Assembly: GCA_017993055.1 (NCBI GenBank)
Contig: JAGONM010000009.1
Coordinates: 33,099 to 97,098 of the forward strand
DNA: 64,000 bases
Direction: 5' to 3'
From: Armatimonadota bacterium
GTDB lineage: Bacteria > Armatimonadota > UBA5829 > DTJY01
The first letter of the stretch is position 1. The number at the start of each line of letters is the position of its first letter. The translations under genes were made by a program, and so were the position numbers. Of the stretch, positions 6,673-42,523 are shown piece after piece. The notes beneath the pieces were generated by a model. The model was given only the letters and a program-made list of their open reading frames with translations, was not told where the DNA came from and ran no database searches.

Positions 6673-6764
6673 CGCGCCGAAGTGGCGGAATGGCAGACGC
6701 GCATGGTTCAGGACCATGTACCCGCAAGGGTGTAGGGGTTCAACTCCCCTCTTCGGCACCAACC
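6673..6764 (+). repeat. attL direct repeat (92 bp, whole tRNA gene)
   Basis: This 92-bp block is identical to 18918-19009 and spans the whole tRNA-Leu gene plus 3 bp before and 3 bp after. The flanks diverge immediately outside it. It marks the left junction of the integrative element. Confidence 0.9.
6676..6761 (+). tRNA. tRNA-Leu (anticodon CAG), left copy
   Basis: The acceptor stem GCCGAAG pairs with CTTCGGC. The anticodon stem CATGG/CCATG holds a TTCAGGA loop with anticodon CAG at 6709-6711. A long class-II variable arm (CCCGCAAGGG), a T-arm AGGGG-TTCAACT-CCCCT and an encoded CCA end complete it. It reads CUG codons. The gene is complete and has a consensus promoter. It forms the left boundary of the integrated element and is identical to the copy at 18921-19006. 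Confidence 0.97.
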
Positions 6765-18917: not shown

Positions 18918-19009
18918 CGCGCCGAAGTGGCGGAATGGCAGACGCGCATGGTTCAGGACCATGTACCCGCAAGGGTGTAGGGGTTCAACTCCCCTCTTCG
19001 GCACCAACC
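18918..19009 (+). repeat. attR direct repeat (92 bp)
   Basis: Identical to 6673-6764 over 92 bp and covering a full tRNA-Leu gene. Sequence to the right is taken as original chromosome because it begins with an intrinsic terminator suited to the tRNA gene. Confidence 0.9.
18921..19006 (+). tRNA. tRNA-Leu (anticodon CAG), right copy
   Basis: Identical in all 86 positions to the tRNA at 6676-6761, including the encoded CCA. It has no consensus promoter immediately upstream; the nearest is the element promoter about 140 bp away. It does have the terminator. Expression of this copy is therefore uncertain. Confidence 0.95.
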
Positions 19010-30930: not shown

Positions 30931-33414
30931 TTGCAGCGACCCATGACATATATCTCGTGCATGCTGGCCCTGCTCGCATTCACGATGCTGCCGCCCGCCC
31001 TTCTTCCGGCCGCGAACGGCTCACCCGTCCAACAGGACGCCATCGAACTCCGCCTATGGGGCGGCGACTGGGGGATCCCGGCGAAGGACTCGACTGACCC
31101 GTGGCGCCGGGCTCAACGCAAGGTCTTCGAGCGATTCGCAGAGCTTCACCCAGACATCAAGATCATCAGCGCGAGCGGTTTGCAGGTGCAGGGACCGGCA
31201 CAGGAATCAGGTCTGCTGATGGCGATGGCGGGCGGCACCGCGCCGGATGTTTTCTACGTCAACTTCAGGAAGCTCGACAACTACATCAACCAGGGATTTC
31301 TTCTCCAACTGGATGAGTATATCAAGAAGGACCCGGAAGTACTCGCGCGGGTACATCCAACGATCCGCGAGGTCATCACCGTTGACGGTCACGTGTACAG
31401 CATGCCGTGGTTCCAGTGCGTGATGGCGCTCTACTACCGCAAGGACCTCTACAAGATCGCCGGCCTAGACCCAAACAAGCCGCCGAGGGACTGGGATGAG
31501 TTCTACGAATACTGCCAGAAGCTGACGATACCCGAGAAGGGCCAGTACGGTTTCGGATTCCAGGCTTCTCCCAGCGGAACGGCATTCCACTGGATCAACT
31601 TCCTGTGGCAAGCAGGCGGAGACGTGGTAGCAAAGGACGAAAAGGGAGAGTGGCACTGCGTCTTCAACGACGAAGCCGGAGTCACCGCGCTGAAGTTCTT
31701 CCGGAAGCTGGTAGTTGACCCCTGGAAGCGTCCCTCGGACGGCAAGATCATTAACGGCGTCGCCTCCCACACCACTACTTACGCGACCGACATCGCTCAG
31801 GACAAGCTGGCCCAGTGGTTCGGATACTCATATGACATGGTTACCAACCGGCAATCGAGCGTGAACCCCAGCCTGATAGGCATTGCGGCGCTGCCCGCGG
31901 GTCCGGCCGGTCGCGCGAACGAGATCAACGCGGGTATGTGGGGCATCAACTCCCAGATCAAGGACAAGCGCACGCGCGATGCCGCGTGGGAGTACATCAA
32001 GTTCATGTCGAGCGACGAGGCCGACCGCATTCGCACGACGGCGTACGTCGAAGCGGGTCTCGGGAAGATGGTCAGCCCGGACAAGCTGGAGCGCTTCGGC
32101 TACAGGGAGTACCTGCGCGGCATACCGAAGGGATGGATCGAGGCCAACAAGGAGGCCTTCAAGCACGGCCGACCCGAACCCCACGGCAAGAACTGCGAGA
32201 TGATATACATCGAGTTGGACTACCCGCTCGTTGACATGAAGCTTCATCCGAACAAGGACCCGAAGGCGATACTCGATGCCGCGGCCAAGCGGATCGACAC
32301 GAAGATGCTCGGGTACGTTGACCCCGACGTCATGAACCGACGGCGAAAGATCGGCTGGGGTGTGTTCGCACTTCTCCTTGTCGCGCTAGGCTCGATAGCC
32401 ACGGTCTCCATACGGAATCTTGCCAGGGCACACTCGGAAGATGCGGCGGACACGCAGCTGGTGCGCGGTAAGGGAAGCAAGATGATCCACGTAGTGGCCT
32501 GGGCGTTCATGCTGCCCGCCGTGCTGTCAATCCTGGTCTGGAACTATGTGCCCCTCGTTCGAGGCATGACGATGGCGTTCCAGGACTACCGCATCCTCGG
32601 CGGCGGTGCGTTCGTCAGCCTCGACAATTTCATCGAGGCCGTGAACTCCGAGACGTTCCGCGTCGGCGTGCTGAACACGCTCACCTACGTTGCCCTGAAC
32701 ATCGGCCTGGGGTTCTGCGTGCCGATCATACTGGCCCTTCTGCTGAACGAGGTTCCCAGGGGCAAGATGCTCTACCGCACCCTGTTCTACCTGCCCGCGG
32801 TGACCAGCTCGCTCGTGGTCATCTTCCTGTGGAAATGGTTCTACGACCCGTCGCCGCAGGGCTTGTTCAACACGCTCATCGGCTACTACAACCAGATGGC
32901 GATGGCCCTGGCCGAGAGCATACACCCGTGGTTGAGCCACCTTCAGATAACCCAGCAGACTTGGCTGTCGGATCCCAAGCTGGCGATGCTCTGCATCATC
33001 CTGCCGGCGATATGGGCGGGGGCTGGACCGGGCAGCATCATATACCTGGCCGCCATGAAAGGCATCCCGGACGACATGTACGAGGCGGCCGACCTCGACG
33101 GCGCCGGAGTCCTCAGCAAGATATGGCGGGTCACGGTTCCGACGCTCAAACCGCTTATCATCATCAACTTCGTCGGAGCGTTCATCGGCTCGTTCAAAGC
33201 CATGGAGAACATCTTCATCATGACCGGCGGCGGGCCTCTGAATGCGACGCATACAATCAGCCTGGAGATCTGGTACAACGCCTTCATGTACCTGAGGTTC
33301 GGCTATGCGACCGCCGCCGCCTGGATCATGGGAAGCATGCTGATCGGTTTCACGATGTACCAGTTGAGGATTCTCAAGAACGTGCGGTTCTCGACGTCCG
33401 GGCGGGAGGAATAG
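30931..33414 (+). CDS. ABC sugar transporter: solute-binding protein fused to MalF-type permease
   Basis: 827 residues from a TTG start at 30931, chosen because AGGAG lies 6 nt upstream. A signal segment (about 5-30) precedes an extracellular binding-protein domain (family 1 type, about 35-465; for example DVFYVNFRKLDNYINQGFL). A membrane helix near 478-497 links to a MalF-like permease domain with about six helices and the EAA loop EAADLDGAGVLSKIWRVTVP, which docks the ATPase. Tethered binding proteins remove the need for a free periplasmic protein. The operon continues with a MalG-type permease; no ATPase gene is nearby, so a shared MsmK-type ATPase is likely. Confidence 0.9.
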   Translation: MQRPMTYISCMLALLAFTMLPPALLPAANGSPVQQDAIELRLWGGDWGIPAKDSTDPWRRAQRKVFERFAELHPDIKIISASGLQVQGPAQESGLLMAMAGGTAPDVFYVNFRKLDNYINQGFLLQLDEYIKKDPEVLARVHPTIREVITVDGHVYSMPWFQCVMALYYRKDLYKIAGLDPNKPPRDWDEFYEYCQKLTIPEKGQYGFGFQASPSGTAFHWINFLWQAGGDVVAKDEKGEWHCVFNDEAGVTALKFFRKLVVDPWKRPSDGKIINGVASHTTTYATDIAQDKLAQWFGYSYDMVTNRQSSVNPSLIGIAALPAGPAGRANEINAGMWGINSQIKDKRTRDAAWEYIKFMSSDEADRIRTTAYVEAGLGKMVSPDKLERFGYREYLRGIPKGWIEANKEAFKHGRPEPHGKNCEMIYIELDYPLVDMKLHPNKDPKAILDAAAKRIDTKMLGYVDPDVMNRRRKIGWGVFALLLVALGSIATVSIRNLARAHSEDAADTQLVRGKGSKMIHVVAWAFMLPAVLSILVWNYVPLVRGMTMAFQDYRILGGGAFVSLDNFIEAVNSETFRVGVLNTLTYVALNIGLGFCVPIILALLLNEVPRGKMLYRTLFYLPAVTSSLVVIFLWKWFYDPSPQGLFNTLIGYYNQMAMALAESIHPWLSHLQITQQTWLSDPKLAMLCIILPAIWAGAGPGSIIYLAAMKGIPDDMYEAADLDGAGVLSKIWRVTVPTLKPLIIINFVGAFIGSFKAMENIFIMTGGGPLNATHTISLEIWYNAFMYLRFGYATAAAWIMGSMLIGFTMYQLRILKNVRFSTSGREE

Positions 33415-33418
33415 CAGC

Positions 33419-35305
33419 ATGGCAATCATCCCAACCGTGGGCCGAAAATCCCTCTCGATGCGTTTGATCATCGCCGGAATCTACCTCGTGCTGTCGGTCG
33501 GCTCGGTCACCATGATCTACCCGTTCCTGGTGATGCTATCAACCGCGGTCAAGAGCAGTGTCGATGTCAACGACTACCGCGTCGTGCCGAAGTACTTCTA
33601 CAGCGAGTCGGCACTCTGCGCCAAGTACGCCGAGATCAAGTTCGCAGGTGACATCGAAGCGATCAACGGATACTACCGAGCCGACTTCGCCAAGCTGGAG
33701 GAAGTCGAAGCCCCGCAGACGGAGCCGCTCAGCCCCGGTCAGAAAACCCTGATCAGAGATTGGACCGAGTTCGGCCGGATTCTGCCGATGACGTACAGGC
33801 AGGCAAATTACTTGCCGATACCCGGCACGTCTCACTGCCCGAGTCTGCTACTCGACGCGTATCGGGCATTCCTTCGAAAGCGTTTTGACAATGACATTGG
33901 CGCCCTGAACAAGCTCTACAAGGAGGAGAACAACGGTTTCGAGACGGTTTTCTCCCCCTTCGAGCGGACGGATCAGCGCGAGTGGCAGCCGGACAAGTCG
34001 GCCAAGATGCAGGAATGGCTGGAGTTCGAACAGTCACTGCCCGTGGACTACACGCGTGTCGTAGGCTGCGAACTCCTGTTCACCAAGTTCCTCAGGGAAG
34101 ACAAATACGATGCGGACATTGCGAAGCTGAATGCCGCCTACGGCACCAAGTACAAGGCGTTCACCGACGTGCACCTCTCCCCCACCCTGCCCGCAAACCC
34201 GAGGGAACGCCCGGACTGGGAGGAGTTCGCACGGAGCACCCTGCCGTTCCGCTTCATGAGAGTGTCCGACGAGGCCACACCTGCGTACAGGCATTTTCTG
34301 TCAAAGCGGTATGTGGGCAGCATCGGCGAAGTCAATCGCGTCTACAAGGCGGACTACGCTTCGTTCGATCAGATCGCGCTACCCACGTCCCTACCGGAGG
34401 AAGGCACTCCGCTCACCGATTGGATGGAGTTCGTATCCCAGGCGGCCCCGGTGACGGCCATTCACGCGCTGAACGCCGAGAACCTGTTCCGGGACCACGT
34501 CATGAAGCGGTACGGCAGCACGGAGGCGGTCAACAAGGCATATGGCGCGAAGATGAAGAGCATCCTCGAACTGGATGCTCCCTATGCTCTCGCAGACATG
34601 CAGTATGTGCAAAACAACCACCGTTTCCTGCGTAAGCATTTCCTCACGCGGAACTACGCGACGGTCATCAGCTACATGGCGCTGCACGGCCGCGCCGTCA
34701 TCAACACCGTCATCTTCTGCGCGGCGGTCATCCTGATCCACCTGATCGTCAACCCGGCATGCGCGTATGCGCTCTCTCGGTACAATCTCAAGTACTCATA
34801 CAAGGTGCTGCTCTTCCTGTTGGCAACCATGGCGTTTCCCGCTGAAGTGACGGCGATCCCGAACTTCCTGATGCTGAAGCAGCTGCACATGCTGAACACC
34901 TTCTGGGCGCTGATCCTGCCGGGAATGGCCGGGGGATTCTCGATCTTTCTGCTCAAGGGGTTCTTCGACAGCCTCCCGAAGGAGTTGTACGAGGCGGCGA
35001 TCATAGACGGGGCGAACGAGCCGACGATGTTCTGGCGAATCACCGTACCGCTCTCAAAGCCTATCTTCGCGGTAATCGCCCTGGGGTCGTTCACGGCGGC
35101 GTACGGCGCGTTCATGTTCGCGTTCCTGGTCTGTCAGAATCAGAAGATGTGGACGATGATGGTGTGGCTCTACGAGATGCAGATACTGGCTCCGAAGTAC
35201 ATCACGATGTCGGCGCTTACCCTGACGGCGTTACCCACGCTGCTGATATTCATCTTCTGCCAGAACATCATCATGCGCGGAATCATCCTCCCGAGCTTCA
35301 AGTAG
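33419..35305 (+). CDS. MalG-type permease with a large repeat insertion
   Basis: 628 residues, over twice the usual 270-300. Helix 1 (about 15-42) is followed by an extracytoplasmic insertion of about 370 residues. The permease then resumes with five helices and the EAA loop YEAAIIDGANEPTMFWRITV (524-543). The insertion holds about five diverged units of 65-75 residues, with cores near 62-98, 145-180, 217-254, 288-322 and 354-389. The unit pattern is DW.EF..xLP, then YR.FL.KRY..DI..LN..Y...Y..F..V.LP. It may bind substrate or the fused binding domain. GGAGG lies 9 nt before the ATG. Confidence 0.88.
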   Translation: MAIIPTVGRKSLSMRLIIAGIYLVLSVGSVTMIYPFLVMLSTAVKSSVDVNDYRVVPKYFYSESALCAKYAEIKFAGDIEAINGYYRADFAKLEEVEAPQTEPLSPGQKTLIRDWTEFGRILPMTYRQANYLPIPGTSHCPSLLLDAYRAFLRKRFDNDIGALNKLYKEENNGFETVFSPFERTDQREWQPDKSAKMQEWLEFEQSLPVDYTRVVGCELLFTKFLREDKYDADIAKLNAAYGTKYKAFTDVHLSPTLPANPRERPDWEEFARSTLPFRFMRVSDEATPAYRHFLSKRYVGSIGEVNRVYKADYASFDQIALPTSLPEEGTPLTDWMEFVSQAAPVTAIHALNAENLFRDHVMKRYGSTEAVNKAYGAKMKSILELDAPYALADMQYVQNNHRFLRKHFLTRNYATVISYMALHGRAVINTVIFCAAVILIHLIVNPACAYALSRYNLKYSYKVLLFLLATMAFPAEVTAIPNFLMLKQLHMLNTFWALILPGMAGGFSIFLLKGFFDSLPKELYEAAIIDGANEPTMFWRITVPLSKPIFAVIALGSFTAAYGAFMFAFLVCQNQKMWTMMVWLYEMQILAPKYITMSALTLTALPTLLIFIFCQNIIMRGIILPSFK

Positions 35306-40615: not shown

Positions 40616-42523
40616 ATGCTGCTGACCTCGCTACATATCCTCAGAAGGTGCTCGCTCGCACTTGCGCTTATTCTTGCGGCGCCTGTCGCGTGCAATGCAC
40701 TAACCGGCGCACCGTTCCAGATAAGGACGAGCCTCAAGAATCCGATAGTGTGGCAGGGCATCGGAAACTGGCTGATCATGACTGAGGACAAGACGAACGG
40801 GCGCGTCTGCTACTTCTATGATCCCGTGATCAAAATCAGTTCGATCCTCATGGAGGGAATGTCGCTTCAGCTCGCACCACTCGGATCTGAGATCAAGTGG
40901 TTGATGTACACCGACTACTACCAGAACCTCGACCGCCTGATGGCGGGCGACGTGGACAACGACAACTTCCACATTGCGTGGCCGAGTAACCTGAAGCAGG
41001 TCGGCTGCGGCATGAAGTACACGAACTGCGTTTTCGGTCAGTACAGGCAGCAGAAGGTCGGAGATCGCTACCCCGTGGACCTCTTCAGCTTCGATGTCGC
41101 CCGCGGAGGCGCCACCCTGATCGTAGGCAGCGACTCCGAGAAATCCCAGTTCGCCCACGATGGCGACACGATAGTCTACCAGGCCAACAACGGATTCGGG
41201 GAGACCGCCATCCGAGCAATCCGGTTCGACAACCCGGCTGAGCAGACCGTATTCGTCGGGCCCGCCTTCGAACCCTCGGTGTGCTACAACCTCGTCGCCT
41301 GGGCGCAGTCCAACGGCCCCGGATTCGACATAATCGCAAAGAACCTCGATACCGGCGAGATCAGGACGGTAGCCTACACCACCGCTAACCCACCCAGGCC
41401 CGAGGCAGGCAGGGGCGCCATATTCTGGCAAGACGCCCGAAACGCCGCCTCCACCGGCATTGATGTATACGGCTACGACTGGGCCACCGCGCAGGAGTAC
41501 TGCGTCACCAATGCAGCCGGCGACCAGTTGAGGCTTCGCGTCTGTGATGACCTCGTCACATGGACGACCGGCACTTCCACCCAGACCCTCTGGGGCGCAC
41601 GGATTCCGACGCCGACAATCGTCTCCGATCTGATCGTCACCCGGGTTACACCGAACTCCGTCTCCCTCGCATGGACTTCAATCGGCGACACCAACAACCC
41701 GGGCGCGTTGTACGACCTCCGATACCGCACCGACGGCCCGATCACAGAGGCCACATGGGCGACTTCAGCTACCGTCGCCGGGCTTCCCATCCCGCAGGCA
41801 GGCGGTCGCAGGGAATCCTTCGCTGTTGACTCATTGTGTTCGGGACGCGTCTATTTCGCGCTCAAGGTGAAGTTCCGGAACAACACATGGTCCCCGCTCT
41901 CCAACTGCGTCAGCGCGTACGTCGCCGACGAGGCCAGCGCGCTCCGGAACGCCGGCGAGGGCGATTCGATCAGCTTCACGGGAGTCGCGAGCGGCATCGG
42001 CGCGGAGGGGGCATTGTACTGCCAGCGCAGCGACCGATCCCAAGCCGTCCGCGTGATTCCGATGTCCGCCGCTTCACCCGCGCTCGGTCAGCGGCTGACG
42101 GTCACGGGCCGGCTGGCACAGGACCCGGAGTTCATGGGACCCGTGCTGGAGGGTGCCGTCGTAGCGCTGAATGAGGGCACTCAGGAGATCAGGCCGCTCG
42201 GAATGCGCCTCGACTCCCTTGGCGGTTTCGATGCCCGATGGGGAGGCGTCGCGGTCGGCGGCCCGTCGAACCTCTGGGCGCGCGTGCGGATATGGGGACG
42301 CGTCACGGGCCTGGCCACGACGGGCGGATGCTCGTTCTTCCTCAATGACGGCTGTGACCTACCCGACAACAATGTCAGGGGCGCGCTCGTGTCGAGCCCG
42401 TTCCCAGCACCGGACGGCCTGGCCGATGGGCGGTACGTCCTCGTCGAGGGTATATGCCGCTTCTCCCGGGCCGACGGCAGACAGATCGAGGTCGTCGAGC
42501 AGTCCGGCATCGTCCTGAGATAG
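40616..42523 (+). CDS. secreted beta-propeller / fibronectin-III / OB-like multidomain protein
   Basis: 635 residues: a signal peptide (LHILRRCSLALALILAAPVACNA), a TolB-like propeller (about 30-335), a fibronectin type III domain (about 338-435, SLAWTSIGDTNNPGALYDLRY) and two OB-like beta domains (GEGDSISFTGVAS..., about 445-630). AGGAG lies 5 nt before the ATG. The OB-like unit also occurs at the N terminus of the GH3 enzyme at 20.3 kb. Probably a surface or extracellular protein; no enzyme motif seen. Confidence 0.75.
   Translation: MLLTSLHILRRCSLALALILAAPVACNALTGAPFQIRTSLKNPIVWQGIGNWLIMTEDKTNGRVCYFYDPVIKISSILMEGMSLQLAPLGSEIKWLMYTDYYQNLDRLMAGDVDNDNFHIAWPSNLKQVGCGMKYTNCVFGQYRQQKVGDRYPVDLFSFDVARGGATLIVGSDSEKSQFAHDGDTIVYQANNGFGETAIRAIRFDNPAEQTVFVGPAFEPSVCYNLVAWAQSNGPGFDIIAKNLDTGEIRTVAYTTANPPRPEAGRGAIFWQDARNAASTGIDVYGYDWATAQEYCVTNAAGDQLRLRVCDDLVTWTTGTSTQTLWGARIPTPTIVSDLIVTRVTPNSVSLAWTSIGDTNNPGALYDLRYRTDGPITEATWATSATVAGLPIPQAGGRRESFAVDSLCSGRVYFALKVKFRNNTWSPLSNCVSAYVADEASALRNAGEGDSISFTGVASGIGAEGALYCQRSDRSQAVRVIPMSAASPALGQRLTVTGRLAQDPEFMGPVLEGAVVALNEGTQEIRPLGMRLDSLGGFDARWGGVAVGGPSNLWARVRIWGRVTGLATTGGCSFFLNDGCDLPDNNVRGALVSSPFPAPDGLADGRYVLVEGICRFSRADGRQIEVVEQSGIVLR

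Follow-up and report, generated by a model that had tools for sequence, protein, structure and literature searches.

The 64,000-nucleotide stretch of an Armatimonadota bacterium genome analysed here, referred to below as the window (GenBank assembly GCA_017993055.1, contig JAGONM010000009.1, positions 33,099 to 97,098), carries two adjoining genes of an ATP-binding cassette (ABC) importer, the second of which encodes a MalG-type permease with a large domain inserted between its first two membrane helices. The permease gene (33419..35305, + strand) codes for 628 amino acids and lies directly downstream of a gene (30931..33414, +) for an 827-residue protein in which a solute-binding protein (SBP) is fused to a MalF-type permease. 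The fusion comprises the domain PF01547 (residues 63-364, 129.4 bits), an extra transmembrane helix indicated by hydropathy (residues 474-492) and the domain PF00528 (residues 595-810, 49.1 bits). Among structures in the PDB the SBP is related to a mixture of sugar-binding proteins, with MalE3 as the best match (E 2.5e-23), so that no substrate could be named; the transporter is likely a sugar importer.

The permease is of a known kind and bears a new, widespread outer domain. PF00528 (BPD_transp_1) was found at residues 456-622 with 51.1 bits against a cut-off of 26.4, the EAA loop reads ELYEAAIIDGA, and the six-helix fold of MalG is present. The nearest NCBIfam full-length equivalogs, UgpE (76.4 against 297 bits) and MalG (63.6 against 261 bits), both remained far under cut-off, and on sequence grounds the protein appears to be a subfamily relative of MalG/UgpE (CUT1). 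Hydropathy placed transmembrane helix 1 at residues 16-34 (33464..33520, +) and helix 2 at about residues 426-444 (34694..34750, +), in agreement with helices 12-43 and 424-454 of the AlphaFold2 (AF2) model, and confirmed the insertion of about 370 residues that the original prediction, made from the letters of the window, had placed between them. For alignment A2 (the window protein, a second insert permease of the same genome, L002, and 26 of the 29 loci L020-L048) and for a second fold prediction the extracytoplasmic insert was cut as residues 44-422 (33548..34684, +).

Within the insert lie five diverged repeats, as had been proposed, all encoded on the + strand: unit 1 (residues 54-105, 33578..33733), unit 2 (106-194, 33734..34000), unit 3 (195-263, 34001..34207), unit 4 (264-328, 34208..34402) and unit 5 (329-392, 34403..34594). 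The unit size of 65-75 residues suggested for them holds approximately for the last three (69, 65 and 64 residues) and fails for the first two (52 and 89 residues), the uneven lengths arising from the missing first helix of unit 1 and from extra residues at two places in unit 2. When each pair of units was compared with 300 shuffles, nine of the ten pairs scored above every shuffle, and for the weakest pair, unit 2 versus unit 5, 10 of the 300 shuffles attained the score. The units, compared with one another as profiles, gave E-values from 8.5e-8 to 2e-19 at probabilities of 94.4-99.2, the values for unit 1 against the others ranging from 8.5e-8 to 7.1e-10. A hidden Markov model (HMM) trained on the units of alignment A1 (the window protein and 92 of 120 listed homologues) scored the five units cut from the window at 49.8-88.2 bits (49.8 for unit 1, 82.1 for unit 3, 78.3 for unit 4 and 64.5 for unit 5), and neither the units of this protein nor those of its near relatives, the relatives of unit 1 included, are independent of the model. 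Applied to whole permeases of other genomes, a count that covered 78 of the 80 loci described below, the HMM detected five copies in 58 proteins, four in 16, three in 2 and six in 2, with zero copies in 80 shuffled proteins and zero in 56 SBP-MalF partners.

Structure prediction of the insert alone with AF2 yielded a mean pLDDT (predicted local distance difference test score) of 89.7 and a pTM (predicted template modelling score) of 0.85, and the fold was confident both with and without the membrane part. DSSP assignment of the model resolved five helix-strand-hairpin units, and the insert is thus predicted to be an ordered, rigid extracytoplasmic domain, each full unit of which would consist of a helix, a short strand and a helical hairpin. 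Since an ordered domain was returned at this pLDDT, the disordered or repeat-free outcome that had been named as telling against a repeat insert was not obtained. A fold search with the insert alone returned matches of unit size only, and no structural match of barrel size was found in it.

The repeat is not an unfamiliar motif. Units 2-5 each resemble one segment of GH42/GH14-type enzymes (GH, glycoside hydrolase family), namely the helical hairpin that follows the catalytic acid/base in the chain, and unit 1 resembles the other units. The GH42 profile PF02449 exceeded its cut-off, with its best stretch, assigned to unit 4, pairing residues 283-341 with profile positions 147-211 of 376, and it matched the insert alone at E 3.3e-11. 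In profile searches the stretch 170-226 matched residues 168-230 of the GH42 enzyme 4oif_A (unit 3, E 7e-4), the stretch 303-342 matched residues 187-226 of the beta-amylase 3voc_A (unit 5, E 1.4e-3), and the VIA match to the GH42 enzyme BiBga42A spanned residues 166-237 (8ibt_A) and 166-241 (8ibr). The acid/base of BiBga42A is Glu-160, and two residues located where long helices of domain A end in their tips, Trp-200 and Phe-221, form the substrate site of the neighbouring trimer subunit (PMC10688820). Because the match begins at residue 166, the matched piece leaves out the acid/base and corresponds to an arm extending to another chain. In the window's genome the motif is present once each in GH-like proteins, and the insert itself matches just two permeases there.

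Three of the 120 listed homologues (P0028, P0051 and P0113) bear the name beta-galactosidase in public databases, to which the PF02449 match probably gave rise, and these names, together with the score above cut-off, would agree with the insert being a glycoside hydrolase. Such an activity is hardly credible, however, as at best profile positions 147-211 of 376 are matched, the whole (beta/alpha)8 catalytic domain is missing, the matched segments start past the acid/base, the nucleophile region of the profile is unmatched, and a loose acid/base-like NE pattern was encountered three times, in 2 of 56 inserts.

The main rival to the docking role considered below is that the insert forms a glycan-binding array, one of the two roles (beside that of a lid) offered by the original prediction and not demonstrated here, in which the hairpins would retain part of the enzymes' affinity for sugar and concentrate or thread oligosaccharides towards the SBP. 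The likeness in sequence and structure does not extend beyond carbohydrate-active enzymes, the parts of the transporter have their matches in sugar families, and the GH42 hairpin tip contributes to a sugar site. On the other hand, the tip insertion with a Trp that is carried by the aligned GH42s (4oif and protein L009 of the window's genome), a Trp which is probably the equivalent of Trp-200 of BiBga42A, is absent from the repeat profile, and its absence speaks against a simple retention of the GH42 sugar contacts. A conserved aromatic residue common to all tips was not demonstrated, although aromatic tips are not wholly absent, a loose count placing a Trp at most 9 residues away in 51 of the 280 tips that matched the pattern. 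Glycan binding is regarded as possible and, on balance, unlikely.

The insert is by no means peculiar to one permease. A homologue search retrieved 1675 proteins at E <= 1e-3, and the homologue names rest on the 120 of them listed. Among 291 Armatimonadota genomes the insert of the window had matches in 160 (E <= 1e-3) and the A2 profile in 159 (E <= 1e-6). The genome collection was searched with the full permease, by patterns that lie in the membrane part, and of 380 relatives the best 80, as judged by their likeness to the query with its insert, were taken as a locus set. The record titles of this set point to seven phyla (Armatimonadetes, Firestonebacteria, Elusimicrobia, Lentisphaerae, Kiritimatiellaeota, Verrucomicrobia and Planctomycetes), with one record titled Actinomycetota. 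All 80 loci contain a match to the insert, which is partly an effect of selection because this ranking favoured likeness to the query. The family f20 consists of shorter permeases that mostly match the first part of the A2 profile; in its genomes, e.g., at locus L132, about two units are detectable in a shortened insert and the SBP-MalF fusion is kept. No description of such an insert was found in the literature searched, which was mainly open-access, with subscription papers largely outside it.

The insert is strongly associated with SBP-MalF fusions, unlinked genes included, which bears out the suggestion that it accompanies a fused binding protein. At thresholds of E <= 1e-80 for the fusion and E <= 1e-15 for the insert profile, the 291 Armatimonadota genomes, whose relatedness keeps the Fisher p-value from measuring independent events, divided into 134 with both, 139 with neither, 4 with the fusion only and 14 with the insert only; a single-sequence insert query gave 127, 142, 11 and 11, respectively. 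Among the discordant genomes, completeness of 90% or more together with contamination of 5% or less was reached by G030 (fusion only) and by G106, G128, G131, G241 and G244 (insert only). In G128, G241 and G244 the SBP and MalF matches share one frame beside the insert permease, and these genomes were counted as insert-only because the fusion fell under the threshold.

A same-strand fusion was present in the fetched flank at 61 of the 80 loci (58 upstream, 3 downstream), and a search of the remaining 19 genomes located it in 16 (9 of 9 and 7 of 10), so that 77 of 80 loci have the fusion either adjacent or elsewhere in the genome. The other three are represented by a fragment in G301 and by G300 and G305, in which none was found in the genome search. 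Some pairs of insert permease and fusion are unlinked, for example in G080, where about 89 kb separates the two on one contig, and in G008, where they lie on different contigs. The genome of the window contains two insert permeases and two fusions (contigs C9 and C32), among 30 PF00528 matches. Its second insert permease, L002 (G000:C33:9903-11753), is 47% identical to that of the window, and no MalF, SBP or fusion was found within the fetched 1.5 kb flanks, where the neighbours are presumably glutamate racemase-, RNase PH- and HypE/SelD-like. The same genome also encodes two permease-domain matches in one 585-residue frame (G000:C62:7871-9277), which is likely a single-chain MalF-MalG fusion.

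Alternatively, the insert might stabilise the MalF-MalG pair structurally or keep its members spaced, or might serve as an anchor to envelope material, with no direct role in SBP docking. Mean column identity amounts to 0.758 in the membrane part versus 0.41-0.52 in the insert units, and some lineages lose or shorten units, in agreement with such a subordinate role. Distance trees of the window protein and 55 of the 80 loci showed a positive insert-SBP correlation in the full data. The signal no longer stood out once lengths had been matched, the insert then following its own membrane part no less closely than the SBP. The stabiliser explanation leaves unaccounted for, however, why the insert is paired with a MalF that is fused to an SBP when the same genome also has unfused permeases with which it is not paired, and we consider it quite improbable.

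We find it somewhat more probable than not, and favour it, that the insert is an extracytoplasmic docking domain on the P1 loop of MalG that would keep the tethered SBP in place above the pore. The insert would enlarge P1, the first outer loop of MalG; in the enterobacterial maltose transporter MalE reportedly interacts with this loop and with P2 of MalF, as the title of a 2007 study by Daus has it. The N-lobe of MalE is likewise reported to make its contacts chiefly with MalG. The tethered SBP would swing on the anchor that MalF provides, and the hairpins may grip it above the pore in a putative contact, as a docking or scoop device, so that the released sugar would enter the channel with its escape prevented. 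In the dipeptide permease DppB a helix-loop-helix scoop after the first transmembrane helix is reported to enter the cleft of DppA, where it binds and closes off the cavity; removal of the scoop impaired growth and transport and lowered ATPase activity (PMC12136057). The series of hairpins lies at the position of the scoop and is retained with a tethered SBP, and its most plausible function is that of a docking or scoop device, in which reaching arms of the GH42 type would have increased in number and now serve to hold an adjacent protein. More tentatively, the permeases could represent a new class of SBP docking, in which repeated copying of a glycosidase's inter-subunit arm gave rise to an outer domain with five arms, near-obligatory for importers with a MalF-fused SBP; the permanently tethered SBP would work inside this cage, and sugar would be handed over from arm to pore without release; we regard this wider proposal as conceivable and rather less than probable.

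The surroundings of the two genes consist of eight other neighbours, i.e., DnaE-like, ImsB/DinB-like, polysaccharide deacetylase, DegT aminotransferase, multihaem cytochrome and hydroxyethylthiazole kinase proteins and two without Pfam match, and no ABC ATPase was found among these eight. No neighbour family besides permease and fusion is common to the loci, the next real family occurring in 6 of 80. Elsewhere in the window, a 635-residue protein (40616-42523) has no Pfam match at E <= 1e-5, and two tRNA-Leu genes, both with anticodon CAG, lie about 12 kb apart (6676-6761 and 18921-19006).

If docking is the role of the insert, a piece of an enzyme would have been turned into a repeat scaffold on a transporter. 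Tethering of the SBP and enlargement of the SBP-side loop co-occur here in a natural system, even where the genes are unlinked, and this co-occurrence makes the question of substrate escape in type I importers testable by deletion of one domain. Furthermore, database entries in which such permeases are named beta-galactosidase can be corrected, and a common, uncharacterised design of sugar uptake is flagged in Armatimonadota and in PVC (Planctomycetes-Verrucomicrobia-Chlamydiae) bacteria.

Compared with known systems, the arrangement departs from MalFGK2-MalE of E. coli and Salmonella, in which MalG is without a repeat insert and MalE is free, whereas here the SBP is fused to MalF; for the large MalF-P2 region of that transporter (residues 91-271) no counterpart was seen in the 827-residue fusion by hydropathy. 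In OpuA and GlnPQ the binding domain is covalently tied to a membrane subunit, like in the SBP-MalF fusion, and to our knowledge neither system includes a partner permease that carries a repeat insert. With the GH42 arm (BiBga42A 166-241) the insert units are predicted to share a short strand followed by a helical hairpin; in the enzyme the hairpin reaches a neighbouring chain and exists as one copy in a catalytic barrel, with a Trp-bearing tip insertion, whereas the permease carries tandem units and no barrel. The scoop of DppB/OppB, for which the accessible text reports no enzyme likeness (PMC12136057), is likewise a hairpin element directly after the first transmembrane helix of one permease. 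It belongs to the peptide family and binds the SBP cleft with a single hairpin of about 30 residues, in contrast to the five units and about 370 residues of the insert described here.
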